IMG/VR virus record: IMGVR_UViG_3300035698_005497
Coordinates: 1 to 41,548 of that record
Length of the DNA stretch: 41,548 bases
Reading direction: 5' to 3' (one strand)
DNA from: a virus
The position numbers were made by a program, and so were the translations under genes. The notes beneath the pieces were generated by a model that saw only the letters and a program-made list of their open reading frames with translations, was not told the origin of the DNA and searched no databases. Of the stretch, positions 12,463-39,876 are shown in pieces (positions within the stretch are counted from its first letter, which is position 1; each line of letters starts with the position of its first letter).

Positions 12463-15400
12463 CTATCTTTCTATCTTAGTTTTTAAGTTTAAGTTATTTT
12501 TTGTTTTTTTCTTCTTTTTTTCCTCTTCTTTTTTTATATCTAATTCCCAAGCTGACCAACCACCTATTAAAGCTAATCTCTTATACGTCTCTATCTCGCT
12601 ATTAGATGCGTCAACTAGGTTTTCTACTTTTTGTATAATTCTATCTGATGGAAAATTAAAAGCAGCAGATACAACTTTACCACCTGCTTTAACAGCTGGG
12701 CTAGATAAGCTAACTCCTTGTTCTTTAATTTCATCCATCTCCCAAGACATTGTTCTACCAGCTGCTCTAAACTTTTGAATCTTAGAAGATATTGGAGGTG
12801 CTATCTTTAATAACTCTAAAAAACCATCTTCATATTTAGGGTTTTTCTTTTCACTGTCTCTATATAGCTTTAAAGCTGTGTTTTTAACAACTGAAAATAT
12901 AGCTCCACCGATACCCGTACCTCTAGCTATACCGTCTATCATACTATTAACTACATCCACTGTTTTCTTGTCTTCCTCTTCTTCGTCTCCAAATGTCATA
13001 GCAAAAACAGCCTGTTGCAGCGTTGTAAATATAATATTTTGAACAACCCCATAGTAAAGTATCTTAGATATGTTAGACTTAGCGTCTCCTCTGCCGTTTT
13101 TAAGATCGCTAGCGGCTTTTTTAATAAGTCTAGCATACTGGGCTGGTGTGTTAGCAAAAGCTAGTATAATACGCCCTAAAGGACCTGCTTGTTGTTGACT
13201 TATTTTATCTGGTCTACTAGATTGTTGAGATTCTTCAGCTGTCTCTATAAAATCCCTCATAGCTAGTTTTTCTGCTGCTAATGGATCCATTCCTTTTTTA
13301 ATTAAAGAATTAATTCTGTTTCTATAGAAAGTAGAACCACCTGATGCAATAGCAAAGCTATCAGCTACCTGCGTTGGCGTAAAGCCTAGTTTTAACAAAT
13401 AGTTTAAAGCTCCTCTAGCGCCTTTTTCTTTAGCTATATCCGCTATATCAGCTTCGTTTACATTTACTTTCAAACCATCTCTCCTGTCAATCAAGTATTC
13501 AGATTTAAAAAGAGTTGAAAAATCACTCCAGTACTGCTTTTGATTAGCTAGAGCTTTACCAGCGGCTAAAACGTTATTATCTGTAAAGTTTATAAAGTTT
13601 ATAGCAGATATTGTTTGTAAAACTGCTGATCTAGTATTTAAGAACATTATAGCGCCAACAGAGCCATTTACCCAGTCTGTAACTCTACCTGTTAGAGTAT
13701 CGGTACCGTAATCTCTGTTCTTACCGGTTTTCATTCTCCTTAACGTGTTTTCCATTGCTTTACGGTACTGTGTCCCATAAGAAGCTTCTAACTTGTTTAG
13801 GTTTTCTACTGAGAAAATAGCATCAACGTTTTTTTGCCATTGCTCTAAATGCATTTTTCTTCTAGTTGTGTTTAACACCTCTAGTAGATCAGTTGTTATG
13901 TTACCTGTTATCCACGTGTCACTAGGTGAAAGATATTTTTTACCTGGGTTCAACCTCATTACTTGAGCAGCGAATTCAGATAAATTTGCGTCAGCATCGA
14001 CGTATTTAACCAATTCACTAATATCTGTTTTACTTAAACCTGGAGCTTCTATCCCTATGCTATTCCATATCCAAACACGAGCAGCTTGCTCTCTAGTAAA
14101 TAGTCCATCTGGAGTTTTTTCTTTAAGGTCTTTCGGTGTAACTTTGAATTCTTTTTTTATCTCTTTAAATCTTCTACCAAAGGCATTCCTATCTCTTGAT
14201 ATGGCTTGATTCGCTCTAGCATATGGGTCTAGTAATGTTCTTTTGTAAAACTGCATCTGCTGATCACCAATTTTACCTTTACCTAGTGTGTAGTACAATA
14301 GCCCAACAAAATCTTCAGCCGATGGTGGTATAAATATATTGAAACGACGTTGGCTATCTGCTATCATTTTAGCTTTTACTTCAGATATTGTCTCCGTAGC
14401 TAGTATGCCGGTTTTATTTTCTATTATCTTGTTAAATTCTCTACTTAAGTTTTTACTGAATCGCGCGTCGCTATTAACTTCTTCGTTATATTTTCCTAAA
14501 CCCGTGTTGACAGGAGCTATTTGAAGTATTTTATTTTCTTTAATAGCTTTGCTAATTATCGACTGAGCTTCTGTGTTAGAGTATCTTGAAGCATCTGCCT
14601 CTTGTAGATTACTCTTAGAGAGAACGCTGTTTAGTTCTTTAGATATAAGGTTAACATAAACTCCTTTCAAATAACTTCTCAAAGAAGCTTCATTGCCTTT
14701 TTCGCCAAACTCTAGTAGTTGTTTTTTAATCTTTAGAACTGTTGTAGCGTGTTCTAAATACATGTCTTTAGGTTTTACGCCTTGCATTTGCGCTCCAGGT
14801 TTAGAAAGCTTACGTATTGGACCTCTTTGATCTAAAGAAAGAAAAGCTATAACTGATTTTATTTTATTAATATCACCATTTTGGTCTGATATAGCTTTAA
14901 TAATGTAATTAACAGATGCCGCTGCTTGAGCCTCAATTTCAATAACAGTAGCTGGAGTGAAACCAGTTTTTTTAATCTCGTTAGTAATATCCAACATGCC
15001 TCTTAGCAATTCGTCTTTATAGTAAATAAATGACTTACCATCTTCTCTTTTTACTTTAAAACCTAAATCTACAGCTATTTTTATAGGTTTTATATACTTA
15101 TTAAAGAAATCATAATTACTAGGAACTTTCTCTAACTTACTTGACTTAGCTGATCTAGAAGCAAAGTATAGAAATTCTTTTATTAATTCCGCTCTATTTT
15201 CGTCACTGCTATTTGTTTTACTTAAATTAGATTTCAAGTCTGAATAAACTACACTAAGTCCAAACCGCTCATACTCTTTAATATATGTATCTCTATAATT
15301 ACTAAACGCTTTTAGTATTATAGATTGATCACTAGGTCTATAAGAAGACACTAGGTTGTTTACACTTTCTGCTTGAAATTCTCTACGGTCTTTTTCTGTA

Positions 15401-18400
15401 ATCTCTACTTTAGCTATTTGATCTATTGCTTTTAAAACATCTATTATATTGCTATTTCCTTCTTCGATGACACTAGATAATGCTTCTTTGGTTTCATCAC
15501 TTAGTAGTTGGTTATTTACTGTATTAGTAAGAATTTTCACATCTGACTTGTCAAACGCTTTAGAAAACCTAACTTCAAGATTCTTGCTGAATTTTATATC
15601 ACCTTTTTTATCTGTATAGTTAGCTTCAATTAACTCATCTGTGTTTTTGAACGCGGCATCCATACGGTCCCACCAAAACTTATCGTTTCCGTCTCTAAGA
15701 GATACTAGCTTATTGTTTGGTGTAAAAGCTATTTTATAGCCATTACCATCAGAGTTATAACTTTCAAACAATCTAAATGAATTATCTAATTCATTTAGAT
15801 TACTTAAAATAGATTTAGCTTCAGTCTCTTTCTCTTTAAAGAAAACATTTTTAATAGGGTGTTTTTTACTTTTGTTGAAATCTCTTCGCATTACAACAGT
15901 TCCGCTTTCCTCCTTGTAATAAGTTAGTATGTAAACTTTACCAAGCTTTGTTTGAAGTCCTGGTAGTTCTACAACTGGCTTAAACATGAATCCTAGTTCT
16001 TTTAGTTTAGCTTTTTCTTTATTCAAAGAATCTAAAGAAATAAACTGCTTACTGGACTCGTCGTACTCTACCTCAGAAGTTACTGTTATTTTTTCGTACT
16101 CACCACTTTTTTCGTATTTACTAGCAGCTTTACGAGCTTCTTTAATAGAACTAAAATCTTCAAAATCATACCAACCAACACCTTGTTCTCCCCATAAATC
16201 AAGAATCTTTTGGTTTAAACTGTCTTTACTTTTTATAGTTCTAGCTATTAAGCACCAAGGGTTAGACTTTACACCCCAAGTACTATCTACAGCAGCTCTA
16301 ACATCAAGCTGACCTTGCTTGTCGTCCTTAACATCGTAAACAACTAAACCATTTTCTAATACTTTTTTATTGCTAAATGAATTTACTTCATCAGGGTTAA
16401 TTTTCATTGGCTTAATCTCACCTGAGAACTGTTCTAGTATTTCGTTAGGGTTTTTATAGCTATATGGGTCTATTTTCTTTATAGAAGATATTCTTTCAGC
16501 TTGTATCACTTTGTAGCCATCTTCTGGAAGTATTACAAAACCATTGTTCATATAGTAAAAAGCTAGCTTTTCAAATTTACTTTTTTTATTTTTAGGTACG
16601 TTTAAATTATCCACCCATAAAAACAGTTTATCTACTTGTCCAGCAGCGTCTTTCATTGAGGGTCTATTCTTAGCTAAGCTAGTTTCGTAGGACTTTTTAG
16701 CGTTCTTGCTAAACATTACCCTGGATTTACCCCCGCCAATATCAGCTAATACTTTTTCTGTAGGTTTTTTATCAGATGTGATACCTTTTTCTACAATATC
16801 TTTTCTAATTATAGTGTTAGCTACGTTCGCGGCATATATCTTGGTTAAACCCTGTAAAGCCGTACCAAATTTAGTTCTGTTAACACCTTTCATTGGTATA
16901 AAAGCCTCACCAGCTTCTGTAATACCTATTGTTTTCTGTAATTCTTTTACTGCTTCTTTAGATACTCTACCTCTATATTTGTCCTTTAATCTATATACTT
17001 TAGCTACTTGAGAAGTTTTACCTTTACCTCTACCAGATGGAGAAGTTATAGCTCTATTTTTAACGTCTTTGTCGCTGCTTTTAGACTTAGGATCAACGTA
17101 CACGTCGTATAATTGGTTCAATAAAACACTTGAAGTCCCTACACTGTAACCTTTAGCGTCTGTAGTTAAATCTATAGATTTCCCCTGTTTATCCACTGTT
17201 GTCTCAAACGGAGCTATATTAAACTCAGGTATAGTTTTTATGAATTTAACAGCGTCGTTATAGTTTAAAAACAGTTTTTGCATAGCTCTAACCTCTGCTT
17301 CACCTCCGGTGTCTTTACCGTAGTTAAGCGTTCTAGTGCCATCTATTCTCTCAGCTAACTTCTTGTTCATGTCTACATCAAAAGCGTTGTTAGGATCAGT
17401 GCTATACACTCCTAAGATAGCTGCTCCAACTGGTCCAGCATATTGATCAACAACTTTTTTGTAAGTTAAATTAGCTATGTCTATATTCTCTGTTTTTACT
17501 ATGTCTTTTATTGTACCTATCTTGTCTTTTACGTTATTAAAAGTAGTTACGTCAATTAGTTCACCAGCTGGTAAACCTCTTTCAGCGCTAGTGTAGGCGT
17601 CGAAATCTCTAGATCCTTCATCCGCTAGTTCTCTAGTTGACCCTACTGATCCAGCCTCTAAGTCTAGGCTTTGTGTGTTTTGTATTTTACCTTTTAAGGC
17701 TTTGTCTAGTATTTGCCCGTATCTTAAGCTTAAGTTTTTCTTCATGTAAGCACCGAAAGGAACTTTCTTACCGTCTACTAACACTTTATACGTGTTAATA
17801 AGAGCAGATAACTCTTCACTGAATCCAGAAAAGAATTCATCATAACCAACCTTAAGACCACTATCTATAGCTAAGTCTTTTCCTACAGCTGCCGCTTTTT
17901 TAGCTAGATTAGTTACAGCACCTAGATTGTTTTCACCTAGCCTGTTGACTATAGCTTTACGCTTCTCAGGGTCTTTTATGTCAGAAACGCTATTAGCTTT
18001 TAACTCTAGTATTTCGTTAGAAATATCTTCATTTTTTTTAGATATGTCCTTGTTTTTATCTGATACTTCTGTTTCTTTAAATACTTTTTCAGAGGCTTTT
18101 TTAATAACCTCTTCTGTGTTGTTTTTGTTATCTAATGTACTTGGCTTAGAAACAACTTTCTCTTCAATAGGCGCTCTTTTAGCAGCTTCTAATTTAGATT
18201 CTAAGTTACCTAATTCTTGCTCGTACTCGATGTCGTCCATCTCGCCGTTGTAGTATCGATCTGTAAGATCCTCTATTTTAGTTTCAATATCAGCAATACT
18301 TTTACTCTCTGATATAGTTTGTTTTGCTATTTTTTCATCTACATTTGCACTTTTCTTAATAACAAATTCTTTTCCAATTTTTCCTTTTTGAAAAGCTTTA

Positions 18401-21400
18401 TTATAATCTTCTATGAAATTAACGACAGAGTTTTCGCTTTCATTGAACTTAATTTTAATTAATCCGACGTCTTGAAATTGTCTTCTAAAATAATCTTTTA
18501 TCTTAGTGTAGGTAGATTTATCAGGTTTTACATCTTCACGAGATAGAGCTTCTGAAAATAAAGTTATATATTCTTCGTAAAAATTATCTTTAGTTATTTT
18601 TTTGTCTTCGTAGTCTTTTTCGTAAGAAGATAGTCTATCTTTAAATTCTACACCTTGGCTTTCTGGTAAAGATTGTATTACATTTTTAAGTAATTCAACA
18701 CCTTCATTTAAAGACTTAGAATCTTCAGCAAAGTTATATCTTAGTAATTTATGTAAAAACTCGTGTTGACCTGTTGTAACAACGCTTTCTTTTATAGCAA
18801 CGGTTTTATTTATAACTAAAATCTCCTTACCTTCTTTGTTAGTAATAAAAACACCTAGGTTGCCTTTACTTTCTTCAGATCGTTCTTCGCTTAAACCAGA
18901 GTCTAAGAGTATTTTTTTCATTTTATCAGCAGAGCTTTCATTAACATCATCTTCAAGCGCTATAACTTCACCTATATTAACACCAATTTTAGCGGCATTT
19001 TTTTGTACGTTTTCAATGTCTTTTTCTATTTTAGATAAAATATCTCTTTTTACACCTCCCTGCTTTATGTCTTTATCTATTTTATTTATTTTTTCATCAA
19101 TTTCGCTATAAAAAGCTGGATCTGTTTTTTCTTTTTCTTGTATTAATTTGCTTTTTTCAACTAACAAGTCTATCTGTTCAGATGTAACGTTTTCTGGAGA
19201 AGATTCTATAGCTTTTTTAATATCTCTAGAAAACACTATAGCGTCGTTTATCTTTTCTTTAGATTCGCTGTCTTTCGTGTATTTGTACATGGTCATCAAG
19301 TGAAGTTCTAGACCATTTATGTTTTCTGATATTTGATTGTATATTAATTTTTTTTGGTTACTAAACGTATTTTTTGCTCCAACCGTACCCATAGAACCAC
19401 TAAGCATTAAAGTACCCATTGTCAATTCTATTTGTTGATTTAAAAACTCACTAGCTTTAGGTAGTGCTAAACCAAAAGAAGCGTCTGTAAGAATGTTAGC
19501 ACCCAAAGTTATCTCTTCTTCCGCGTATTCTTTTAAAATTCCAGTACTAAATTCTTTAACAGCAGACTTAACGCCTTCTTTGTTTGCGGCGGTTTTTAAC
19601 GTGCCAGCAAAAGCTTCTTTTATTGTTTTACCTCCAACTCCTTTTAGAAATTGAGCATCTGGCATTATACTTTGTACTAAAGCCTCAGTGCTTGATATAG
19701 CTGTAGCGTAAGCCGTAGCTTGCAACCCGTTTAAACCTAGTAGTTCTGCTTGTTTTTGATTATCTATTATGGTGGCCCTGAAAGTAGCATCAACCATTAT
19801 TATATTATCTTTAAGTTTTTGTGAAGCCTGTGGAAGCACTTTTCCTTTAGCTCCTAGATTTATATATGTTTTACCTAAAGCGTCTTTTAAACCAGTGTAA
19901 TTACCTTTTCTAACTTCAGATATTAGATAACCAGTAAAAGGAACCATACTAACACCTAGTTTAGCGTAGTTTCTGGCTTCAAAACCTTTAAAACCACCTT
20001 CTTCTTTTGTTATACTAAATTTTTCATCAGTTGATTGAGGTACCATAGTGTTGTTTGTCCAGTTACCAACAATGTCTCTAAAAGCGTCAAAACTAGAGTA
20101 ATTATCTTGGTCTTGAAACATATCACCGAAACTAGATAAAACCCAAGAACCTGACCCTACTGTTGCTTTTTTAACAGTTTGATACAAGCCTTGTACTAAA
20201 TCACCACCAACTATGTCTTTCGTAGCGTTCCAAAAACCATCACCTGCGTATTTTTCTCTAAAACTATCAGCGTCGCTACTTAGTTTAAAGTTGTTATTCA
20301 TAGTCTGCTTAGCTAGGTCAACACCTAGTTCACCTTGATATGAATTAAATTTGTTAGCAGCGTCTTTCTTGAAGTAATCATAGTTTTCTGCAGTGGACCT
20401 TATCTTGCTATTTGTGTTTTCGTATTTACTAACTAAAATATTATAGGCGCTAGAGTCTTCTTCGTTTAAAATATACCTACCCTGCTCGTCTTTTTGTTTA
20501 CCACTTACTACGTCTTTTATTAATGCATTTATGTTATTTATTTCTTTAGAATAATTATACATTTTACTCTCAGTTTCTATAGTTAGTTTTTCAACTGCAG
20601 TAGAAATCTCTTTTTCTTTTTCTTTAATTAAAGGTATTTTTACGTTATTAATCAAGTTTTCTTTTTCTTGTAAAGTGTAAAAACCGCCTGCTAGTTTCTG
20701 TAAAGACCTTTCGTCTAAATTATTAATTACTGCATCTTCAACCTCGTCGTTTAATTTTATTGTCTCTGTTGACTCTAGGTTCTTATAGTAACTTTTTCCT
20801 TTGAATAAATTCAAAACACCAGCCTCACTAGATAGGTCAGAAGCAACGTCGCCAGTCGCTCTATTGTTATTTGAGTTTCTAGATAACTGAATAATAGCAT
20901 CGTTTCTTAGTTTAAAGTCAGGATTAAGATTCATTACTTTTACCTCGTTGGCTACGGTTTCATCAAAATCTTTCATGGTTTTCTTAACGTAATTTACGCT
21001 TTCCATTGGATCCATAGTCTCGTAAGAAGTAACTTCAGCTTTTTTTCTTAACTTATCTTTTTCTAGTTGAAGCTCGTTTAATCTATTTCTATTTCTTTTA
21101 TATGTTTCTAATTTATCTACTGGTTTAAATTTCTGCAACTGAGGCGGAGCACCGTAATCGCTATCTGTTAAGTCCATTATAGAGCTAGCCTTTTGACCAG
21201 TTCTTTGTTCAAAATTAAACAAAGCTTGATCAGTGCTTATTTTTTTTACTGAAGCTTCTTTGGTTTTATCTAACTGCCTGCTGTTTTTAGCTTTTAAATC
21301 TCTTTCGGCTGTTAATCTTTGTCTATCACTGAAATTTAATTTTCTTTTTTGATCAAGAGACATTTTCTCAAATTGATCTAAAGTTGGTTTTTTAAGTTCA

Positions 21401-21669
21401 GTATCAGAATCTTGTAATGCCGAAGAAGTGTTTCCCGAACCTAAAACCGTATCTGTTGCTACTCCTTGTTTCGCTGTTGCATTTGCAACCGGTCCCACAA
21501 CAGCGTTTGTCTTTACTTCTTCACCAAAAAAACCACCAACTGGTGATTCTTGTTTTATTTCTTTTATAGTAGGGTTTTTTGAAAGTAATTCTTCAAACGT
21601 ATAACCTTTTTCATTAGCTATAGCTTGTAGTTGATCTAGTGAGTATTGTTTTCCGTTAAATTCGAACAT
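12463..21669 (-). CDS. Giant polyvalent virion/ejection protein, 3068 aa
   Basis: This 9.2-kb gene encodes 22% of the window. The N-terminus (YSLDQLQAIANEKGYTFEELL) is a helical start seen in phage ejected proteins. Long helical segments follow, then hydrophobic stretches near residues 565-580 and 640. HEFLH at 969-973 is a zincin HExxH motif, with Glu-rich helices after it. NPWCL at 1803-1807 lies in a separate alpha/beta-looking region. FSK motifs at 1653, 2027, 2035 and 2404 mark likely module boundaries. The C-terminal part (AFANTPAQYARLIKK near 2820-2850, then hydrophobic helices) resembles the LPD38-type region of polyvalent proteins. Position after gp14-like and 489-aa genes fits a T7 gp16-like internal protein that crosses the host envelope. 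No T7- or N4-type RNA polymerase motif was found. Confidence 0.85.
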   Translation of the reverse strand: MFEFNGKQYSLDQLQAIANEKGYTFEELLSKNPTIKEIKQESPVGGFFGEEVKTNAVVGPVANATAKQGVATDTVLGSGNTSSALQDSDTELKKPTLDQFEKMSLDQKRKLNFSDRQRLTAERDLKAKNSRQLDKTKEASVKKISTDQALFNFEQRTGQKASSIMDLTDSDYGAPPQLQKFKPVDKLETYKRNRNRLNELQLEKDKLRKKAEVTSYETMDPMESVNYVKKTMKDFDETVANEVKVMNLNPDFKLRNDAIIQLSRNSNNNRATGDVASDLSSEAGVLNLFKGKSYYKNLESTETIKLNDEVEDAVINNLDERSLQKLAGGFYTLQEKENLINNVKIPLIKEKEKEISTAVEKLTIETESKMYNYSKEINNINALIKDVVSGKQKDEQGRYILNEEDSSAYNILVSKYENTNSKIRSTAENYDYFKKDAANKFNSYQGELGVDLAKQTMNNNFKLSSDADSFREKYAGDGFWNATKDIVGGDLVQGLYQTVKKATVGSGSWVLSSFGDMFQDQDNYSSFDAFRDIVGNWTNNTMVPQSTDEKFSITKEEGGFKGFEARNYAKLGVSMVPFTGYLISEVRKGNYTGLKDALGKTYINLGAKGKVLPQASQKLKDNIIMVDATFRATIIDNQKQAELLGLNGLQATAYATAISSTEALVQSIMPDAQFLKGVGGKTIKEAFAGTLKTAANKEGVKSAVKEFSTGILKEYAEEEITLGANILTDASFGLALPKASEFLNQQIELTMGTLMLSGSMGTVGAKNTFSNQKKLIYNQISENINGLELHLMTMYKYTKDSESKEKINDAIVFSRDIKKAIESSPENVTSEQIDLLVEKSKLIQEKEKTDPAFYSEIDEKINKIDKDIKQGGVKRDILSKIEKDIENVQKNAAKIGVNIGEVIALEDDVNESSADKMKKILLDSGLSEERSEESKGNLGVFITNKEGKEILVINKTVAIKESVVTTGQHEFLHKLLRYNFAEDSKSLNEGVELLKNVIQSLPESQGVEFKDRLSSYEKDYEDKKITKDNFYEEYITLFSEALSREDVKPDKSTYTKIKDYFRRQFQDVGLIKIKFNESENSVVNFIEDYNKAFQKGKIGKEFVIKKSANVDEKIAKQTISESKSIADIETKIEDLTDRYYNGEMDDIEYEQELGNLESKLEAAKRAPIEEKVVSKPSTLDNKNNTEEVIKKASEKVFKETEVSDKNKDISKKNEDISNEILELKANSVSDIKDPEKRKAIVNRLGENNLGAVTNLAKKAAAVGKDLAIDSGLKVGYDEFFSGFSEELSALINTYKVLVDGKKVPFGAYMKKNLSLRYGQILDKALKGKIQNTQSLDLEAGSVGSTRELADEGSRDFDAYTSAERGLPAGELIDVTTFNNVKDKIGTIKDIVKTENIDIANLTYKKVVDQYAGPVGAAILGVYSTDPNNAFDVDMNKKLAERIDGTRTLNYGKDTGGEAEVRAMQKLFLNYNDAVKFIKTIPEFNIAPFETTVDKQGKSIDLTTDAKGYSVGTSSVLLNQLYDVYVDPKSKSSDKDVKNRAITSPSGRGKGKTSQVAKVYRLKDKYRGRVSKEAVKELQKTIGITEAGEAFIPMKGVNRTKFGTALQGLTKIYAANVANTIIRKDIVEKGITSDKKPTEKVLADIGGGKSRVMFSKNAKKSYETSLAKNRPSMKDAAGQVDKLFLWVDNLNVPKNKKSKFEKLAFYYMNNGFVILPEDGYKVIQAERISSIKKIDPYSYKNPNEILEQFSGEIKPMKINPDEVNSFSNKKVLENGLVVYDVKDDKQGQLDVRAAVDSTWGVKSNPWCLIARTIKSKDSLNQKILDLWGEQGVGWYDFEDFSSIKEARKAASKYEKSGEYEKITVTSEVEYDESSKQFISLDSLNKEKAKLKELGFMFKPVVELPGLQTKLGKVYILTYYKEESGTVVMRRDFNKSKKHPIKNVFFKEKETEAKSILSNLNELDNSFRLFESYNSDGNGYKIAFTPNNKLVSLRDGNDKFWWDRMDAAFKNTDELIEANYTDKKGDIKFSKNLEVRFSKAFDKSDVKILTNTVNNQLLSDETKEALSSVIEEGNSNIIDVLKAIDQIAKVEITEKDRREFQAESVNNLVSSYRPSDQSIILKAFSNYRDTYIKEYERFGLSVVYSDLKSNLSKTNSSDENRAELIKEFLYFASRSAKSSKLEKVPSNYDFFNKYIKPIKIAVDLGFKVKREDGKSFIYYKDELLRGMLDITNEIKKTGFTPATVIEIEAQAAASVNYIIKAISDQNGDINKIKSVIAFLSLDQRGPIRKLSKPGAQMQGVKPKDMYLEHATTVLKIKKQLLEFGEKGNEASLRSYLKGVYVNLISKELNSVLSKSNLQEADASRYSNTEAQSIISKAIKENKILQIAPVNTGLGKYNEEVNSDARFSKNLSREFNKIIENKTGILATETISEVKAKMIADSQRRFNIFIPPSAEDFVGLLYYTLGKGKIGDQQMQFYKRTLLDPYARANQAISRDRNAFGRRFKEIKKEFKVTPKDLKEKTPDGLFTREQAARVWIWNSIGIEAPGLSKTDISELVKYVDADANLSEFAAQVMRLNPGKKYLSPSDTWITGNITTDLLEVLNTTRRKMHLEQWQKNVDAIFSVENLNKLEASYGTQYRKAMENTLRRMKTGKNRDYGTDTLTGRVTDWVNGSVGAIMFLNTRSAVLQTISAINFINFTDNNVLAAGKALANQKQYWSDFSTLFKSEYLIDRRDGLKVNVNEADIADIAKEKGARGALNYLLKLGFTPTQVADSFAIASGGSTFYRNRINSLIKKGMDPLAAEKLAMRDFIETAEESQQSSRPDKISQQQAGPLGRIILAFANTPAQYARLIKKAASDLKNGRGDAKSNISKILYYGVVQNIIFTTLQQAVFAMTFGDEEEEDKKTVDVVNSMIDGIARGTGIGGAIFSVVKNTALKLYRDSEKKNPKYEDGFLELLKIAPPISSKIQKFRAAGRTMSWEMDEIKEQGVSLSSPAVKAGGKVVSAAFNFPSDRIIQKVENLVDASNSEIETYKRLALIGGWSAWELDIKKEEEKKKKKTKNNLNLKTKIER

Positions 21670-21718: not shown

Positions 21719-23188
21719 TTATTGAAAATCATCACCTAGTTTTTTTGAAGTACCTTTCTTTAAAGTTGCCTCAAAGTTACTTCTAAAAGATCTAGCGTAT
21801 TCTGAGGTTCCTTTAGCGTTGCTAGTGTAATCTAGTAGCTTTTTATAAAATCTATTCCTTTGCGAAGCTATATTCATGTCATATCTAATCTCTTCGTTTT
21901 CCTCTTCTGTTTCACCAGGTACATCTATTGTTATAACATTTTTACCTCTGTTATATTTAGGAGTTACTCCAGTTAAAAACTCATAGGTGCCTACTGGGTC
22001 TTTTTTGTATTCTTCATAAGTGGCAATTGCGTCTTCTTTCACTTGATCTTTAGCAACAAAATCTTTGTCTATTTTTTCAGTTGTTTGCTTTTCTTTAGTT
22101 GTTTTACTTATAGACACCTCGTATCCATTAAATCTCTTAACGTACTCGTCAACATATAAAGCCGCTATATCTTTTTTTAGTTTATCACCTTTTTCTTTAT
22201 CTATAAAGTCATCTGTGCTAATTTTTTCTCCATTAGGGTTTAATATATTATTATAATACGATGCCAGCTCAATTGGTTTCATTGATTGTATATCAGAATT
22301 TAAAGAAGTGTAAACTTGCTCTTTAACTTTATTGATATCAATAACCTCAACCAACTCTACATATGCTCCTCTATCTACTGTTTTTCTAGTTAAAAAGTCT
22401 TTTTTGTATATTTTTTTATCTGTAATTGGTTCTTTAGTCATAAGCATCTCGTTGGCGCTTTCTAAAGATTTTGTTTTGTCTGGCACTGTAACTATAGCTC
22501 CTTCTACTTTTCCTGCTATTAGATCTTTAAGATACGCTTGCGGGTATCTTCTAGCTTCTCCAATAGAATTTCCTTTTTCATCAGTTGAATGTATTAAGTA
22601 GTCTACATTTATGTTACCATTATAATCCTCACTTATATCTATTTTTCTTGTTCCAGGAGAGTTATTCATAAATATATTAACATCTTCAAGTAGTTTCGGA
22701 TCAGTTAAAGTAACATCAATACCTCCTTGTTTATTTAATTTACCAAAAGCATCCTTACGTGTTAACTCAAATTCAGAAAAAGCTTTTATACCATTAACAA
22801 TTTGTTCTGGTAAAGTCCTTAGTTTAGCTAACCTATCTCTCAATCTAGACTGCTCTTTAGGATCTGTAATTGTACCTAAATCTAGTGAGTTTTTTATATC
22901 ACTATATTCATCGATAAAAGCAGGTAAAACTTCGGGTAAATTTAAAGCTGGATTGTCAGCTCTATACTTTTGATAATTATACCTTATTGAATCTTCTTCA
23001 GATTGACTATTCTTTATTATTTGTTCGTTCTTAAGCTGTCTTTCTTTAAACTGCTTTTGTTTATTTTTATTTTCCTCAGCATATCTACTAGCCACATTAG
23101 AAAATGCACCAGAAACAGTCTGTTGTAGGTTAGCTATATGTTGAGCAGATTGTGTATCTACTACTTGTTGTGGATTTCTATAACTCAT
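21719..23188 (-). CDS. Probable internal virion protein (T7 gp15-like by position), 489 aa
   Basis: A 489-aa charged, mostly helical protein without recognised domain. The N-terminal 60 residues are Gln/Asn/Lys-rich (QQVVDTQSAQHIANLQQTV) and could be coiled coil; the rest is Asp/Lys/Glu-rich with few cysteines. It lies between the gp14-like gene (7 nt away) and the giant ejected protein, matching the gp14-gp15-gp16 order of T7. The assignment rests on this synteny and the helical make-up. A role in moving DNA through the cell wall is inferred. Confidence 0.6.
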   Translation of the reverse strand: MSYRNPQQVVDTQSAQHIANLQQTVSGAFSNVASRYAEENKNKQKQFKERQLKNEQIIKNSQSEEDSIRYNYQKYRADNPALNLPEVLPAFIDEYSDIKNSLDLGTITDPKEQSRLRDRLAKLRTLPEQIVNGIKAFSEFELTRKDAFGKLNKQGGIDVTLTDPKLLEDVNIFMNNSPGTRKIDISEDYNGNINVDYLIHSTDEKGNSIGEARRYPQAYLKDLIAGKVEGAIVTVPDKTKSLESANEMLMTKEPITDKKIYKKDFLTRKTVDRGAYVELVEVIDINKVKEQVYTSLNSDIQSMKPIELASYYNNILNPNGEKISTDDFIDKEKGDKLKKDIAALYVDEYVKRFNGYEVSISKTTKEKQTTEKIDKDFVAKDQVKEDAIATYEEYKKDPVGTYEFLTGVTPKYNRGKNVITIDVPGETEEENEEIRYDMNIASQRNRFYKKLLDYTSNAKGTSEYARSFRSNFEATLKKGTSKKLGDDFQ

Positions 23189-23195
23189 TTTATAA

Positions 23196-23939
23196 TTATA
23201 TTACGTTTTGTACACCAAGTGCATTTAATCCTAATGTTCTAGCAACTGGTCTTTGGGTGTTAGAACTAAAAGCTCCTGCTGAGTACATGTTCCCAACAAC
23301 GCTGGTCACACCTCCTATAGCTCCGGTTATTGCTCCTGTTACATCTGACTGAGCTTGTGTTTGTCTAGCTTCTGACCCTGCTATTTGAGACGATACCCTG
23401 TCTAGCTGTTCCACTTGTCTATTTTCTCTAACTCCAAATTGAAACTGTTGACCAGCTACATCTGCTTGTTGTAGTCTAATAGCTTCACCCATTTTCACTT
23501 GTTCTAAAGCTTGTTGTCCTTGTGCTCTTAGTTTTTCGTTTTGAGCTTCTTGCATTTCTATACTTGCTGAAATACCTTTCTTTGATTGCAAAGCCGCTTG
23601 AGCTAAAGCTGTTGCTCCACCAGCGCTTGCCCCTGTAGATCTAATAGCGTCTAACGTGTTAGCTAAGGCTATATCAGCTTCTTCAGCTTGCATTTCTGCT
23701 GCTTGAGTAGCTACTCCCAAATTAGCAAAAGGGTTTGTAATCATAGAGGAAGTGTCGCTTACATTAGAGTATGGATTTATTATCTCTTGCCTACTGTTTT
23801 CAAGTGATTCTAGTTTTTTAACTAAATCTCTTTTTTCGTTTGCAGCAGCTTTTGCTCTTCTGTTAGCGCTAGCAGCTCCGAAAAGCCCACTAACAATATT
23901 TAAGCCACCTGTTATCAGACCTGCGGTTACCATGCTCAT
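23196..23939 (-). CDS. Internal virion protein, T7 gp14-like, 247 aa
   Basis: The N-terminus (TAGLITGGLNIVSGLFGAA) and the region near 200-220 (GAITGAIGGVTSVVG) are Gly/Ala-rich hydrophobic segments typical of small ejected proteins that insert in the outer membrane. Between them lies a long Gln/Ala-rich helix (MQEAQNEKLRAQGQQALEQV). Size and position match T7 gp14. It is in the same frame as the cupin-like gene upstream, with only a TAG and one codon between them. Confidence 0.7.
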   Translation of the reverse strand: MSMVTAGLITGGLNIVSGLFGAASANRRAKAAANEKRDLVKKLESLENSRQEIINPYSNVSDTSSMITNPFANLGVATQAAEMQAEEADIALANTLDAIRSTGASAGGATALAQAALQSKKGISASIEMQEAQNEKLRAQGQQALEQVKMGEAIRLQQADVAGQQFQFGVRENRQVEQLDRVSSQIAGSEARQTQAQSDVTGAITGAIGGVTSVVGNMYSAGAFSSNTQRPVARTLGLNALGVQNVI

Positions 23940-24421: not shown

Positions 24422-25867
24422 TTAATATGATGATTCAATGTAGTTAGATGAAACCGCAAATAGTTCTTTTAAACCTCCTAAATTAGTAGTTTGATCTGTT
24501 GATAATGTAACTGTAGCAAAGTAGCCTTTTATACCTGACATACTATTGCCCCATAAAATTTCTCCCCCTGTAGGTATACTGTTGTTTACTATAACCGCGT
24601 GATACTTATTTTCTTTTCTATCAAAACCAACTCTGTAAGTTACACCACCATCTACATAAACACCTTCACTGTAACTGTATATAGGGTTTGCTTTATCACT
24701 TGTAAATATGTAATTTCCACCTTGCAATGTTTTACCTGTAGGATCTGATTCAAAACTGTCAACTTTCCAACCATTACTACCTTCGTAATTTATTGTTTTA
24801 AATACCTTAGACAAACTAACACTAGGATTGAATATAAAAGTTATTGATGTTTTTGTAGAGTCGTAATCATTATTCCCATAGAAACTACCTCTTTTTATTG
24901 GTAGCGATTCGTTATTTGTTTCTTGATAATGTTTCCAAATTTTACCATTTTTTAAACTATAAAAACCATTCCTCAAACTAAATAATTGGTCAGGCTTATA
25001 CGTAAAGAAACTAGTAAAACCTAAAACGCTTTCATCGAAAGATAAAGTATTGTAGGTTGGGTTTGAAAATATAGGGTTTTGCTGTGTTGATAAAACATAT
25101 TGCTTATTGTATATATCCCAGCCAGCAGTTATAATACCAGGAGCCGAGTTTATATCCATATTAGCAAATTCATCTCTAAAGTAATCACTCATACCGTAGT
25201 TTGATATTTCTGTCAAACCGTCCATAGATAACCTTAAAACAGCGTTTCTATTTTTATCTGTAAAGTATTTTCTATAACCGTAAGTAGCAAAACTTCCTGG
25301 GTCTCTACTTATACCAAAATTTCCACCATAAGGTTGTATTGTTCCTATAGTCGTGTTTACGTTTGTAATACTACCACCGCCTTCAGCTGTGTATATAGCG
25401 TCTTTATCTATTAAAGCTCTAGATACTTTAGCTTCTTGAAATATTATTAAATTAGTGTCTTCAGCATATAGTTTTTGAATAGTACCGTTAGCTGGATCTG
25501 CTGACTTAGTTATTTCTTCAGCTACTGAAAACACATTTGTATTGTTAATACCAGTTCTTGAATTGAATATTCCAGAGTATATTAAAGAATTACCTCTAAC
25601 TGATCCCTTTGCTTCTTCATCAACTAAATACGCTCTAACACCATAATCAACGTTAGTGTTATTAAAACCACCTCTTATTCTAGACTCTTCTATAATCCAA
25701 TTATTACCTGTTGTTGAAACTGGATCTATTTGAGGATAACCACCTAAAGTAGGAGGCACGCCAAAAGAACCATTCCAAGCGGGAGCTTGATCTGTTTCTT
25801 CTATAACCGTATTTGTTTTTCTTAGTAAAAAAGTATTAAAATATTTTACTTCTATAACTGCTCCCAT
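24422..25867 (-). CDS. Tail structural protein, nozzle/beta-propeller-like, 481 aa
   Basis: This beta-rich protein has several short repeated-looking blades (NGFYSLKNGKIWKHY, SITFIFNPSVSLSKVFKTI, GKTLQGGNYIFTSDK). The WIIEESRIRGGFNN start and the FKTINYEG core resemble a conserved tail protein of crAss-like and marine flavobacterial podoviruses, placed after the nozzle. It starts 27 nt after the nozzle gene stop. It probably forms part of the tail tip or a nozzle hub. Exact location in the virion is not shown by sequence. Confidence 0.65.
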   Translation of the reverse strand: MGAVIEVKYFNTFLLRKTNTVIEETDQAPAWNGSFGVPPTLGGYPQIDPVSTTGNNWIIEESRIRGGFNNTNVDYGVRAYLVDEEAKGSVRGNSLIYSGIFNSRTGINNTNVFSVAEEITKSADPANGTIQKLYAEDTNLIIFQEAKVSRALIDKDAIYTAEGGGSITNVNTTIGTIQPYGGNFGISRDPGSFATYGYRKYFTDKNRNAVLRLSMDGLTEISNYGMSDYFRDEFANMDINSAPGIITAGWDIYNKQYVLSTQQNPIFSNPTYNTLSFDESVLGFTSFFTYKPDQLFSLRNGFYSLKNGKIWKHYQETNNESLPIKRGSFYGNNDYDSTKTSITFIFNPSVSLSKVFKTINYEGSNGWKVDSFESDPTGKTLQGGNYIFTSDKANPIYSYSEGVYVDGGVTYRVGFDRKENKYHAVIVNNSIPTGGEILWGNSMSGIKGYFATVTLSTDQTTNLGGLKELFAVSSNYIESSY

Positions 25868-25894: not shown

Positions 25895-28800
25895 TTACAC
25901 TATTTCAAAGCCGTATCCAGAGAAATCAATATTTGTAACAGTAGGTAATTCAAACGTAAAACCATATACACATTCTATCGCTTGATTAATAGCTGTGTTT
26001 TCTGAATGTTTAAAAATCCATTTGTTTGGAAAGGTAGGGCAACCAATTTTAGCACTACTAGTATAATCTAGAAGAATTGTAAAGCCGCCATTATTGATCA
26101 CGAGATCACTCCAGGTATCTAACCAAACGTAAAATCCTTGTTTATCTAAATCTGTTGGATAATTTGCTTCTACTATTGTAAATAAATAGCTTTCAAAATC
26201 TACTGTTAAATTATATTCTTTAACAGAAAGAACTTCAACTGAATTACTGACAGTTATAGTAATTTCATCAAAAGCGCCACCAGCGTCCTGAACTCTTAAA
26301 ACCACTTCATAATTATCTGCTGGTAAAGTATCTACTAAATTATTCCTTAATCTACATGTTGACAAGTCGCTTGTATCTGTTACACTTAAATAAAAATATT
26401 CACCACTACCTCCAGCTGCTCCAATTTGAGAAACTATTGTCCAGTTTAAATCTCTACCTTTATTTGGACTTTCTGTATTAGCTCCGTTTAAAGCTGTCAA
26501 TGTAGTTAAAGTTACGTCTGAACTTAATATATTTATTGAAAAATTAGTTGTAGGATCCATTACCGGAGCTACATTGTTTAAAGTTATACGTTTGTTTACA
26601 ATAGATGTAATATCGTTTATTACAGCTGTAAATTTAAAGTCCCAAACTCTAACACCTAAACTACTTCCAAAATAAACGTTTTCAATAAAGTCGCTGTTAA
26701 CTTTTATATTATAAAAACCACTTACACCAGTTTCGTATAAAGTAAAGTAACTTGAAACGTTTTGTGGTGTAGTTTGAGTATTAAATACTGAAGTTAAAAC
26801 AAAACTATCTATATTAGCTGTTGGCACATCAAATCCCCCTGAGTCAACTAAAGTAAAATCAAAACTAGAAATATCTTCATCTATAGATATAGACTCGTTA
26901 AATCCAGAAACATTGAATACGCTACTAAAACCACTAGCTATATTAACACCATCTGTAACAGCAGTGTTGATTTCTGATATAACGCCAGAAGTGGATGTTT
27001 CCCAAAAAATATCTAATCTAGATGTTTCTGGATTTGTTTCAAAAACAGACAAATTACTCATAGGTCCTCCGCCAACCATGCCATCATATACTATACCAAA
27101 CTGTTTATCTATATTTTGAGAAGTGGTTAGTTGTGTTGTTATAGGATTTGAACCTGCGTTTTGCATGATATATAGTTCTGCGAAACCACCAACAGGAGGG
27201 TTTGCTCTATCTACACCAAATAATTCAAATAAATTTTGTATGGCTGTAGATGTAAAAAATGTTTTACCTGGGTAAAATTGCTCGTTACCAATATTAGTAG
27301 CGCTTCTTTCTGTTATTTCAACTCTACCAAATAGTCTTATAGAACTTCTAAATTGATCCTGCATTGGTCCAACTTCAGATAAGTCTCTAGGAACTTTATT
27401 TATATTATCATTTAATAGTGACAAGTACGTGAAAGATAAATCTTGAGTAGGGGCAAATGGATCACCTTTTAAAGCTCCAGCAGTATATACATTATAATAC
27501 TCTTGTTCTGTTTGCTTAACAACCACCTTGTAAGAATACCAACCTAAAGGATTATATGACTCTGAATTTATATTATTGTTATAAATATTGTCAGTTATAG
27601 GGTCTCTTAACAATACTTTTATAGAACTACCTCTCCAAGTATCGACAACGCTACCAATTACTTCATTAAAGTATGGTTGATAAAATGTTGATCCTGAATA
27701 ATTAACACCTTCAATTTTAATACCATCTTTATTGTTTGATAGTATAACTGTAGATTGTCTACCAAATTTATCAGCTAAAACAAAGCCAACTTGATAGTTT
27801 CTATTCATTTTTAAACTACTACTAGGGTACTCTATAGAACTAGTAAAATTATTTAACAAGTTGAATTCAGATTTTTGAGTGGCTGCTACGTTGTAATTTA
27901 AAAAACTAGGAGGATCTTGTTTGTTGAGGTAATTACCGTAAACAACCCTATTACTTATTATTTCTTGTGCTAAAGCTTTGACTGGTATTTTATCGTAAAC
28001 TCTAGTTATTTCGCTTGATGGTAATGTCTTATATGGTTTTTTTGCAGAATAAACATACTCAAAAACATTTTCAGCTATTGTTATATCTTCTACTGGTATT
28101 GTTTCAACAACTTGTAAAGCTAGCCCATTTGATTCTTTGTATATTATATCTATATCAGTAATATGAAAATAAGTTAACAAGTCTTCACCAGGACAAGGCA
28201 ATGGTACTTGTAAGTATATTTTGTTTACTTTATTTTCCATAAACTTAACTATAGTAGATTCAAAAGTTTCTTTCTCATCGCCTTTTAGTTCTGTTGTATT
28301 AAGAAAGTAACCATCTTGCCTTGGTATAAAGCAAACTTGAGTAAATGGAGCTATTAAAGAATACTCTCCATCATCAAATCTAAATCTATAACTAAATCTA
28401 ACAAATTTATCTTCTAAAAAAGTATCATCACCAGAGTAATCACTTTCATAATAAGGGTTTATGTTAAATACTAATTCAGTTGCTGTGCCTACCAAAGGTA
28501 TAGTCACATCGCCAGTTAAAGTTACTTCAAGAGTTGCGACATTGTAAGACACTACAGTTTCTTCTAAATCTATTATTTCACTATTACTATTAACATAACC
28601 TATAGTAAATCCTTGCTGTGGTGCATTTGGATATATTTGTATAGAAAGAGAAAAATCATTTATTGAAAACGTACTTGAACTTATGACACTTGAGCAAGTG
28701 GCAGAACCACCATTAGGTAAGTTTTTACTAACAACATCTTTCATTGTTGATTCATATTCATCAGCAACTAAAGCGCTTTCTGAATATAAATCAATAGCTC

Positions 28801-29323
28801 TATATGGATAATATTTAGCAACAGATATATGCTCTTCTATAGTATAATAACCTAATGGATTTTGTACATTTATTTTCCTAGGTTGATTTCTATTGTCTGT
28901 CCAAAATAACAATTTTTCTAATAAGTTTACACCAAATATTGGGTTTAATTTACTGAAGTTTAAAAAAGCTCCTTCAACTAACTTTGTTACAACATTATTA
29001 TTTATATTGTAACTAAATATAAAGTGGTTAGAACCAGTTCCAGTTGGAATATAAGAACTACTAGTGTTATCTGTTAAAAATATATAAACATTACCACTAA
29101 ATTCGTCGGCAAAATATCCTATAGAAGATACGTTAGCGACGCCATTAGTTAAGTTGGCAACTTCTTTATTTCCAAGTACATTTTCTAAAGCACCAACATC
29201 TGAGCCTTCGGATTTACTGACCTGAGCATTTATAGCGTTTCTATATTCACCTGACGGTATCAATCTGTCGTCAAGGTCTTTGTTCATTTTAGACTTTATA
29301 AAAGCGTTTTTAACTTCTCCCAT
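25895..29323 (-). CDS. Tail nozzle protein with C-terminal Ig/cadherin-like extension, 1142 aa
   Basis: The N-terminal start (KNAFIKSKMNKDLDDRLIPS, then EYRNAINAQVSKSEGSDVG) is the conserved opening of tail nozzle proteins (T7 gp12/P22 gp10-like) in marine phages. The next about 750 residues are beta-rich and fit a propeller. From about 780 the protein shows Ig or cadherin-like modules, clearest at YEVVLRVQDAGGAFDEITITV, and ends in a short Cys-containing domain. Such extensions usually decorate surfaces or bind receptors, so this protein may double as the adhesin, since no separate fibre is visible. It starts 6 nt after the adaptor gene stop. Confidence 0.75.
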   Translation of the reverse strand: MGEVKNAFIKSKMNKDLDDRLIPSGEYRNAINAQVSKSEGSDVGALENVLGNKEVANLTNGVANVSSIGYFADEFSGNVYIFLTDNTSSSYIPTGTGSNHFIFSYNINNNVVTKLVEGAFLNFSKLNPIFGVNLLEKLLFWTDNRNQPRKINVQNPLGYYTIEEHISVAKYYPYRAIDLYSESALVADEYESTMKDVVSKNLPNGGSATCSSVISSSTFSINDFSLSIQIYPNAPQQGFTIGYVNSNSEIIDLEETVVSYNVATLEVTLTGDVTIPLVGTATELVFNINPYYESDYSGDDTFLEDKFVRFSYRFRFDDGEYSLIAPFTQVCFIPRQDGYFLNTTELKGDEKETFESTIVKFMENKVNKIYLQVPLPCPGEDLLTYFHITDIDIIYKESNGLALQVVETIPVEDITIAENVFEYVYSAKKPYKTLPSSEITRVYDKIPVKALAQEIISNRVVYGNYLNKQDPPSFLNYNVAATQKSEFNLLNNFTSSIEYPSSSLKMNRNYQVGFVLADKFGRQSTVILSNNKDGIKIEGVNYSGSTFYQPYFNEVIGSVVDTWRGSSIKVLLRDPITDNIYNNNINSESYNPLGWYSYKVVVKQTEQEYYNVYTAGALKGDPFAPTQDLSFTYLSLLNDNINKVPRDLSEVGPMQDQFRSSIRLFGRVEITERSATNIGNEQFYPGKTFFTSTAIQNLFELFGVDRANPPVGGFAELYIMQNAGSNPITTQLTTSQNIDKQFGIVYDGMVGGGPMSNLSVFETNPETSRLDIFWETSTSGVISEINTAVTDGVNIASGFSSVFNVSGFNESISIDEDISSFDFTLVDSGGFDVPTANIDSFVLTSVFNTQTTPQNVSSYFTLYETGVSGFYNIKVNSDFIENVYFGSSLGVRVWDFKFTAVINDITSIVNKRITLNNVAPVMDPTTNFSINILSSDVTLTTLTALNGANTESPNKGRDLNWTIVSQIGAAGGSGEYFYLSVTDTSDLSTCRLRNNLVDTLPADNYEVVLRVQDAGGAFDEITITVSNSVEVLSVKEYNLTVDFESYLFTIVEANYPTDLDKQGFYVWLDTWSDLVINNGGFTILLDYTSSAKIGCPTFPNKWIFKHSENTAINQAIECVYGFTFELPTVTNIDFSGYGFEIV

Positions 29324-34957: not shown

Positions 34958-37375
34958 TTATCTAGGTTCAAAACCTCCTAGACCAAAACCACCTAGTACA
35001 TCATTACTAGATGATTCAAAGTTTTTTGGTACAGAGTCCTTTTTCCTTTGATCGATCAACTCTGATTGTTGAGTTGCTTGTATTTTTGTTCTTTGATCTT
35101 TACGGTCTTCTTTTTCTTTTTCTTTTCCATACTCAGCATTTGCTCTTATCTGAGCTAATTGCATGTTGTAATTAAACTCCTCTGCCATTAATTGTTTCTT
35201 TATTTCTGCCTCCTGCTGCATCTGCTGTACTCTGAACTGAGACTTTCCTTGCTCTATTTGTAATTCTGTTTGAGCTAAAGCCTGCTGTTTCTGCACTTCT
35301 GCCAGAGCCGCTCTTTCAGCTGTCTCTGAGTTTGCTTGAGCTTGAGCTTGAATATTTTCTAGTTGAGCTTTTCTAACTTCTTCTTTCTTTATTTTTTGCC
35401 TATGTTTTAGAAATTGGTTTGCTAACTTTAAATTCCTTATTTCTCTGATGTCTATAGCGTCGCTTAGATCAATACTCTGAGTCTGTAAAGCTATTTGAAT
35501 ATTTCTTTCTAACTGAGCTTTCTCTTCTTCGTCTGGTTCTAGTTCTAAAAATATACCAAACTCGTGCATGTTTAATTTAGATATTTCTTCTAAACTAGCA
35601 GTGTTAACTGCATTGATACTATTCATTAACGCGTTTTTAGTTAGAGGGAAATCTAACATATCAGCAACCCTTAAACTTATATTTTCACACGTTCTAATGG
35701 TAACGTACATTAATGACTGTAGTATATGTTTTGTAGCTACGTTTGAATTAGCTGCCGCTAGCTTTTGTAAACCAACTAAAGAATCTTTTGCAGGCATGCT
35801 ACCATCTCGAGCTTCGTTCAATCCCGTGACATCTCTTATCATTTGTAAATAGTATTGATAAGTCTGTATTAGCGCTTGTATTTTATTTATACCTGAAGAC
35901 GACTGTAGCTCTTGGATTGGTATTTTACCTCTGTTAGGATCACCATCTTGCGTTAAAGATCTACCAACTATACTACCTGTTTGAAAGTACATATTTAAAG
36001 CTTCTTGAGGGTTGTAAGAAGTTCCATTACCTAAGTCTACCTCAGCTAAACCATCTACGTCTATAAATATACCGTCAGGAACCATTTTAGATAATACCTG
36101 TTGTATTTTAAGATGTGTTATTTGAATCATATCAGCGAAACCAATACATTTACTAACTAAACTATCTATTCTGCCTTTATACATTCTAGGAGCAGATATA
36201 GCGTAATTCATTTCTACTTTAGTTTGATCACTATACGGTCTAGTCATGTTTTCAGCCAGCTCCCACTTTAACATTTTATCGTGGCCTAATATCTTAGCTC
36301 CACTATAAATAACTTCTATAGATCTAGAAACTTTACTAAAGTTATCATTAACCGGTGGATCAAAACCATCATTCTTTTCTATTGCTTTCTCTAACCCGTA
36401 TTCTGTTTGCTTTATTTTAAATACTTGATTTGTGTAAGTTTTGTATTCAAAATATAAAACCTGTACCGTATCATAGTTACCATCTTGATTTCCTTGTTGT
36501 CTAATATTATTCTGTGAGCCTGGATATTTTTGTATTTCCTCTAGCTCTTCATTAGTTAAGTGAGAAAACTGTTTCTTAAGCTCAGACAAAGAAACCCCTT
36601 TGACTTCGCCTACATAATATATGTCTTCAAAATTAGGGTCTTCGGTGTAAGAGTAAACTAAATTAGCTGGGTCCACATAACTAACGGTAACACCTTCTGA
36701 TAAATTGAAACCTGTTTTAACGCAAGCAATACCCAATATAGTTAAATCTTGTGCTAATCTTTTTTTTGTCTCTTCGTATCTATTAAATTCTAACACGTTG
36801 TCAATAACTTCTTCTTCAGCTATTTCAATGCTTTGCTTGTAATTTAATTGTATATATAAATCTAGTTCATCTCTTGATTGAGGTAAATTGGATGGATCAT
36901 TTGTACTATATAAATCAACTCCTAAAGTTTGCTTAAATTCCTCAATAAGCTCTCTAGCGTTCATGTCTCTTAACACATTTGCAGCGTAATCAGTTCTAGC
37001 TTTTAAAGCGTAAGGATCTGTAGCGAACGATTTTATTTTATAACCTTTATCAGTCATACCGTTAATAACGATATCTACGAACTTAGATAAAACAGCAACC
37101 GGCTGCCAATCTAAATTAAGGTAAGATAAATCCCCGTTAACAGATAACTCGTCTTTGTATTTTTGTACAGATTGTTCTCCTCTTGCATATAACCTTAGTC
37201 TATGAAAGCTCTGCCAGTTGCTACCAAACCTTCCTCCTGAACCAGCTCCACGATCACCGCGGAACCATTCGTTTTCTATACCATTACCAACAGCTCTTCC
37301 GTATTCGTAGCTTTGCTTCTCTGAATCGGGTACTACCTGACTTGGAAATGTACTATTTACAGTTTTGTAAATCAT
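34958..37375 (-). CDS. Portal protein, crAss-like type, 805 aa
   Basis: The portal forms the dodecameric ring for DNA entry and exit. The N-terminus (YEYGRAVGNGIENEWF, then RFGSNWQSFHRLRLYARGEQ) and the core (LAQDLTILGIACVKTGFN, YVDPANLVYSY, IRDVTGLNEARDGS) match crAss-like portals. From about residue 660 a long Gln/Ala/Glu-rich coiled-coil runs almost to the end, fitting the barrel helix, with a glycine-rich tip. It starts immediately after the TerL stop, as expected for the packaging module. Confidence 0.88.
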   Translation of the reverse strand: MIYKTVNSTFPSQVVPDSEKQSYEYGRAVGNGIENEWFRGDRGAGSGGRFGSNWQSFHRLRLYARGEQSVQKYKDELSVNGDLSYLNLDWQPVAVLSKFVDIVINGMTDKGYKIKSFATDPYALKARTDYAANVLRDMNARELIEEFKQTLGVDLYSTNDPSNLPQSRDELDLYIQLNYKQSIEIAEEEVIDNVLEFNRYEETKKRLAQDLTILGIACVKTGFNLSEGVTVSYVDPANLVYSYTEDPNFEDIYYVGEVKGVSLSELKKQFSHLTNEELEEIQKYPGSQNNIRQQGNQDGNYDTVQVLYFEYKTYTNQVFKIKQTEYGLEKAIEKNDGFDPPVNDNFSKVSRSIEVIYSGAKILGHDKMLKWELAENMTRPYSDQTKVEMNYAISAPRMYKGRIDSLVSKCIGFADMIQITHLKIQQVLSKMVPDGIFIDVDGLAEVDLGNGTSYNPQEALNMYFQTGSIVGRSLTQDGDPNRGKIPIQELQSSSGINKIQALIQTYQYYLQMIRDVTGLNEARDGSMPAKDSLVGLQKLAAANSNVATKHILQSLMYVTIRTCENISLRVADMLDFPLTKNALMNSINAVNTASLEEISKLNMHEFGIFLELEPDEEEKAQLERNIQIALQTQSIDLSDAIDIREIRNLKLANQFLKHRQKIKKEEVRKAQLENIQAQAQANSETAERAALAEVQKQQALAQTELQIEQGKSQFRVQQMQQEAEIKKQLMAEEFNYNMQLAQIRANAEYGKEKEKEDRKDQRTKIQATQQSELIDQRKKDSVPKNFESSSNDVLGGFGLGGFEPR

Positions 37376-39604: not shown

Positions 39605-39876
39605 TTAGATCTTCCTTCAGCAAAGCCTTTAAAAGGTTTTTCTTGTTTAAATTCTTTTAAACCATCCTCTAAGATATTGCTCTCCAATTCTATTCTGTTA
39701 AGTATTTCAAAAGCATCAAATATAGCTAGCTTTTTTGTAGCAGCAGCGTTTTTAAGCCTATCCGCGGTAATATCCTCACCTGAATCAAGTATCTTTTCTT
39801 CAGCTACTTTTATCAACTCTTCAACTGCTTTTTGCCCAGCTGCTATTATGTTCTTTTTCGTTTCTCTCGTATCCAT
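39601..39876 (-). CDS. Possible terminase small subunit, 91 aa
   Basis: A 91-aa helical, charged protein: KKNIIAAGQKAVEELIKVA, then DITADRLKNAAATKKLAIFD and EILNRIELES. It sits directly upstream of terL with a 4-nt overlap, the usual place for terS. The DITADRLKNAAATKKLAIFDAF segment is seen in small proteins before terL in flavobacterial phages. A helix-turn-helix is not clear, so TerS is a position-based guess. Confidence 0.5.
   Translation of the reverse strand: MDTRETKKNIIAAGQKAVEELIKVAEEKILDSGEDITADRLKNAAATKKLAIFDAFEILNRIELESNILEDGLKEFKQEKPFKGFAEGRSK

Follow-up and report, generated by a model that had tools for sequence, protein, structure and literature searches.

Giant multidomain phage proteins that carry one HExxH domain among exchangeable effectors are known from the work on polyvalent MPTase proteins (Iyer et al. 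2017, PMC5512222), where delivery with the virion is predicted and processing by the zincin is put forward; since 2017, such processing of polyvalent phage proteins has been only a proposal. The vRNAP of N4 (gp50; PMC12633501) is an ejected protein of 3500 aa with one HExxH (HELVH at residue 2228) and a large helical C-terminal region. In crAss001, the cargo proteins gp45 to gp50 were detected in virions by mass spectrometry (PMC10172136), and Cellulophaga phage phi14:2 has a structural protein, S0A048. Two cultured phages encode giant proteins annotated as structural, elemo gp21 (3694 aa) and Tenacibaculum phage Gundel_1 gp74 (2482 aa).

The giant protein analyzed here, P0001, shares with the polyvalent proteins the large multidomain build, the single HExxH domain, the exchangeable effectors, and the predicted virion delivery and self-processing (PMC5512222). 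It differs in having no match to the Pfam polyvalent MPTase or LPD models at the thresholds used, in having a C-terminal domain (CTD) family of its own, and in carrying a repeated [ILV]KFSK peptide at its module joints, of which we found no mention in the passages of PMC5512222 consulted. A limited literature search found no earlier description of [ILV]KFSK[SNTA] either. Polyvalent ejected proteins with an MPTase are already known; the P0001 family and its joint signal appear to be a new variation on them. The zincin of N4 gp50 sits after its payload, whereas that of P0001 sits before, and no RNAP motif was seen in P0001; neither the zincin nor the CTD of the P0001 family has detectable sequence similarity to N4 vRNAP, which we rejected as a sequence relative. 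P0001 resembles crAss001 gp45 to gp50 in its position after the muzzle and in a CTD fold match to a crAss protein, and phi14:2 S0A048 also in a CTD fold match, but its payload differs from these and contains no recognized RNA polymerase motif. Both elemo gp21 and Gundel_1 gp74 have a zincin that matches the P0001 profile (probabilities of 96% and 87%, respectively). The elemo gene follows the tail genes, in the slot that P0001 also occupies; the Gundel_1 gene lies beside the terminase, and its product also has CTD homology (30.7 bits) and a weak GNAT match in its payload. Unlike P0001, these two proteins show no [KR]FSK enrichment.

Gene neighborhood and extent of P0001

The window is the whole 41,548-nucleotide stretch that was analyzed, and it is a fragment: the 20.7 kb compared of a 59.6-kb IMG/VR contig (L001) was 100% identical to it. 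The terminase and portal proteins have 41 to 64% identity to those of the uncultured podovirus MW202828 and of Flavobacterium elemo phages, and the portal protein is about 35% identical to that of Cellulophaga phi38:1. We assign the source to a crAss-like marine podovirus of Bacteroidota. The genes around P0001 are as follows.

37376..39604, minus strand: large terminase (phrog_6681)
34958..37375, minus strand: portal protein (phrog_6547)
25895..29323, minus strand: muzzle/virion structural protein, N-terminal part (phrog_14478)
24422..25867, minus strand: crassvirus muzzle, C-terminal part (PF25729, E 2.4e-9; PF25731, E 6.3e-7)
23196..23939, minus strand: 247-aa Ala/Gln-rich protein upstream of P0001, possible cargo (in 130 of 183 related loci)
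21719..23188, minus strand: 489-aa protein upstream of P0001, possible second cargo by its position only (in 21 of 183 related loci)
12463..21669, minus strand: giant open reading frame (ORF), proposed ejected cargo polyprotein (3068 aa, 344 kDa)

Two ORFs together make up the crassvirus muzzle, one encoding its N-terminal part and the next its C-terminal domains, and a muzzle gene is found in 134 of the 183 related loci. A gene for an RNA polymerase sigma factor (phrog_351, E 1e-16) is at positions 1270 to 2046 of the window; no virion RNAP was recognized in this phage. A co-chaperonin GroES-like gene (39821 to 40426) adjoins the terminase; MW202828 also encodes GroEL.

The initial annotation had described a single 9.2-kb gene without giving its strand. 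We found one unbroken frame of 3068 codons plus a stop on the minus strand, while the plus-strand reading of the same interval contains many stops. The gene lies downstream of the muzzle and small virion genes, as expected of Crassvirales-type cargo. P0001 had no usable hit when its sequence was compared with Pfam, PHROGs, NCBIfam, and PDB, and tblastn of GenBank phages with residues 69 to 3068 or with the CTD gave zero matches. Conservation across relatives is highest in the zincin and in the final 660 residues, and the order of parts is N terminus, zincin, conserved middle, swappable payload, and helical CTD, as listed here from the N terminus.

19123..21669, minus strand: N-terminal region, aa 1-849, differing from relative to relative
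18340..19122, minus strand: zincin (metallopeptidase-like) domain, about aa 850-1110, from alignment and predicted fold
18751..18765, minus strand: HEFLH, aa 969-973, with H969 and H973 as predicted zinc ligands and E970 as predicted catalytic residue
18571..18576, minus strand: E1032-E1033, with the invariant distal Glu of EExLxxFSxA, which alignments predict to be the third zinc ligand
16735..17982, minus strand: conserved middle module MID1, about aa 1230-1645
16702..16719, minus strand: peptide copy 1, VMFSKN, aa 1651-1656, at the MID1 end
15598..16701, minus strand: payload module a, aa 1657-2024
15580..15597, minus strand: peptide copy 2, IKFSKN, aa 2025-2030
15556..15573, minus strand: peptide copy 3, VRFSKA, aa 2033-2038
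14467..15555, minus strand: payload module b, aa 2039-2401, for the most part helical at low confidence (AlphaFold)
14449..14466, minus strand: peptide copy 4, ARFSKN, aa 2402-2407, at the N-terminal edge of the CTD
12466..14448, minus strand: conserved all-helical CTD (AlphaFold), aa 2408-3068, proposed packaging/ejection module

No clear transmembrane helix was found in residues 1 to 849. The description of P0001 as a polyvalent virion-type protein with a zincin held up: it is supported by the position after the muzzle, by relatives annotated as structural proteins, by a CTD fold shared with polyvalent and crAss-like virion proteins, and by a near-universal HExxH and distal Glu in a family whose members were mostly collected independently of these residues. 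From this evidence, including the annotated relatives, we infer that P0001 is probably carried in the virion and injected into the bacterium.

Conservation and predicted fold of the zincin

P0001 contains 6 His residues in total and a single HExxH, the HEFLH at 969 to 973 that had been noticed earlier; any HExxH occurs in 0.14% of composition shuffles. A search with the zincin region recovered 20 loci, all with HEFLH, a motif that was itself part of the seed. Because of this, we ran two scans with the CTD only, which found at least 552 and at least 593 loci, respectively; 80 were read from each, with a few overlaps. After removal of sequences more than 45% identical, we had a set of 55 proteins (set 1) and an independent set of 45 (set 2), nearly all gathered by the CTD, with a few of the 55 coming from the zincin-seeded search. 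Exactly one HExxH was present in 52 of 55 and 44 of 45 proteins, respectively, or 96 of 100, compared to 0.25% of shuffles. In an alignment of 38 zincin-to-CTD regions with a mean column identity of 13%, the invariant residues are the Glu and second His of HExxH and a distal Glu 60 to 64 residues past HExxH, within EExLTxFSxA or EExLxxFSxA. This combination is the gluzincin ligand pattern, and it strengthens the prediction of a zincin.

The domain is also diverse, with 26 different HExxH pentamers among the 96 proteins, and 33 of the 96 zincins were missed by a hidden Markov model (HMM) built from that of the window. Its position is broadly constant, 774 to 1588 residues before the CTD. In the giant encoded by MW202828 (L021, 741 to 12320; 3859 aa), HEFGH occurs twice, at 1615 and at 2500, so that this protein perhaps has two zincin domains. 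Eight full-length giants have no HExxH, and in seven of them the first His is replaced in an otherwise normal protein, by EELFH in six (L029, L030, L038, L039, L043, and L091) and by QEVGH in one (L092); we regard the zincins of these seven as putative pseudo-peptidases. No zincin remnant was seen in the eighth, L161. Since the first His alone was lost in three of the four representatives without HExxH, a zincin domain can apparently outlive its predicted activity.

An AlphaFold model of residues 840 to 1130, made from 17 aligned sequences, had a pLDDT of 72.7. In model numbering, strands 100 to 104 and 110 to 115 are followed by a helix, 127 to 142, that bears HEFLH, and the distal Glu pair is on a later helix, 188 to 204. 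Foldseek of the model against PDB gave zero matches below 1e-3, and searching PDB by profile from the zincin alignment gave no relevant match. In a realigned structure list (VIA), the best rows were the N-terminal domain of anthrax lethal factor, edema factor, and Certhrax, with Z scores of 4.5 to 6.3 over 159 to 192 residues; unrelated rows reached 4.3, MATCAP 3.2, and the zincin-like structure 3e11 2.6. That N-terminal domain is itself zincin-like, but the match is weak, with no sequence relation, and it is to this domain and not to the catalytic domain of the lethal factor family. The predicted fold around 969 to 973 is compatible with a zincin, but none of the matches (Z ≤6.3) is decisive.

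Exchanged modules, the joint peptide, and the CTD

The interval between the zincin and the CTD is exchanged among relatives, while its ends are conserved, so that multiple exchangeable effector domains reside in one giant chain, as described for polyvalent proteins (Iyer et al. 2017). P0001 has two modules in this interval. In many relatives, a HAD-phosphatase-like domain is found just before the CTD (14 of 38 by PHROG and 43 of 100 by motif); this payload, with DFDD...LTAR, is polynucleotide-kinase-like, lies about 200 residues before the CTD, and occurs in the group of locus L008 and many others. We rejected a crAss-type RNAP payload for P0001, which has no DxDxD, the catalytic motif of the crAss virion RNAP. 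The PF00940 (single-subunit RNAP) profile was silent on four related contigs and on the control alike.

The edges of the P0001 modules are occupied by four copies of a short peptide. We spotted this motif by eye in P0001, and because it had been noticed post hoc we retested it in set 2. In set 1, counted up to the CTD edge, there were 36 occurrences of [KR]FSK compared to 4.3 expected, and three proteins had at least three copies compared to 0.0 expected; in set 2, there were 26 compared to 2.6 expected, or 17 compared to 3.0 with the CTD edge left out. The peptide [ILV]KFSK[SNTA] is about tenfold above chance, and the excess is replicated in the independent set. Among control patterns, the near misses F[KR]S[KR], [KR][FY]T[KR], and S[KR][FY][KR] were at expectation in set 1, and [KR]LSK-type and [DE][FY]S[KR] patterns were at about 2 to 2.5 times expectation; in set 2, [KR]LSK and the other control patterns were at expectation. 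We also found that ends of pairwise homology fall within 15 residues of motif copies more often than at random places (429 compared to 141 ± 38), an excess partly due to the motif itself being conserved, while [KR][FY][^S]K control sites showed no excess. The 62 copies are encoded by 21 different DNA words, so we rejected a DNA recombination word; the codons differ between copies, and conservation is therefore at the level of the peptide. In the P0001 model, two copies are in a low-confidence stretch, to which the thin alignment contributes, and one is at the CTD edge. The motif is carried by 50 of 100 relatives and shows no association with zincin subtype (Fisher p 0.39), and we rejected a coupling between the two. 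L030 and L038 have lost the first His of the zincin and kept the motif, while L092 and L161 lack both HExxH and motif. The motif thus lies at the joints between modules, where it may serve for cutting or for docking.

AlphaFold predicts that the CTD is all-helical, with pLDDT mostly 70 to 94 and lower confidence in loops, in agreement with the helical C terminus proposed in the initial annotation. Its further identification there as LPD38-like is unsupported by sequence, and we rejected it at that level: Pfam LPD38 (PF18857) matched neither P0001 nor 15 relatives, and a profile-profile comparison (hhalign) with seven LPD38 domains from bacterial genomes gave a probability of 0.24%. Against viral models, the CTD has four close homologues (35 to 42% identity), one of them annotated as a UDP-N-acetylglucosamine kinase. 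Further viral fold matches include many giants, several of which are annotated as polyvalent, the phi14:2 structural protein, and a crAss protein annotated as an RNAP subunit. Against PDB structures there was no reliable match, with the PhiM1 T7-like ejectosome protein (8vb2_A) only at Z 3.8. CTD relatives L109 to L115 are in metagenome-assembled genomes (MAGs) from bacteria and archaea (Aliivibrio, Woesearchaeota, and Maricaulis); these MAG contigs look like misbinned phage rather than genuine cellular sequences.

Possible roles of the zincin and the joint peptide

The reading that we prefer, to which we give about even chances, is that P0001 belongs to the polyvalent type of ejected cargo, is built of modules, and has a gluzincin that cuts the linkers between them. 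The helical CTD would be the constant packaging and ejection module and the middle would hold swappable effector payloads. The gluzincin, as the most likely processing peptidase, would cut during head maturation or after entry, freeing payloads of about 43 and 41 kDa and a 74-kDa CTD from a 184-kDa N-terminal part. The cut sites would be the joints, perhaps the peptide itself. Processing of polyvalent proteins by a zincin is proposed in PMC5512222, and the same paper counts against self-processing in reporting that N4 vRNAP, also with an HExxH, is packaged unprocessed. Other points against are that the motif is present in only 50 of 100 relatives, that the zincin model has no PDB match at E < 0.001, and that its VIA Z scores are at most 6.3. 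Cleavage by the zincin in cis at [ILV]KFSK[SNTA] would be an appealing mechanism; a strict form of it is disfavored by the independence of motif and zincin subtype and by the retention of the motif with inactivated zincins. A more specific version, in which the built-in zincin of crAss-related marine podoviruses cuts the [ILV]KFSK[SNTA] peptides that bracket interchangeable effectors, new payloads can be plugged in by copying a joint, and lineages with a dead zincin need another protease, is rather doubtful as it stands. Because the joints can be read from sequence and were replicated in an independent sample, cut sites and fragment sizes are predictable and testable. With at least several hundred related IMG/VR loci, the answer would hold for marine phages that are abundant, and it may extend to crAss-like cargo proteins more widely.

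The zincin might instead be injected as an effector and cut a protein of the host during entry, with the peptide as only a linker or docking element. A host target was one of the two roles put forward in the initial annotation, beside self-processing; we consider this possible but on the unlikely side. The slot is filled by divergent subtypes (26 pentamers among 96 proteins, a third of them missed by the HMM), as for diversifying effectors, the motif is independent of subtype, and PMC5512222 allows such a role. However, 96% of the proteins have a single zincin, at a broadly constant place, which looks more like a core function than like an effector that can be dispensed with; the other payloads are gained and lost. 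The peptide-marked joints also somewhat favor self-processing over a host target. That the domain is mainly structural, acting in packaging or ejection with catalysis dispensable, seems improbable to us. Its retention in recognizable form, with the first His replaced, in all but one of the eight full-length proteins that lack HExxH would fit, as would N4 vRNAP, in which, according to PMC5512222, the HExxH-containing region is needed for encapsidation of a protein that is packaged whole, but HExxH is kept in 96 of 100 representatives and the distal Glu is invariant.

For the peptide itself, the alternative to a cut site is a docking or packaging signal on each module that is read by a scaffold or portal protein, which we regard as a tentative and somewhat unlikely explanation. 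It agrees with the occurrence of the motif alongside intact and dead zincins alike and with the binding of the crAss001 C1 cargo to the portal and tail barrel via defined segments (PMC10172136). In contrast, half of the family lacks the motif, even members whose CTDs are clearly homologous, and the motif is located where modules were exchanged.
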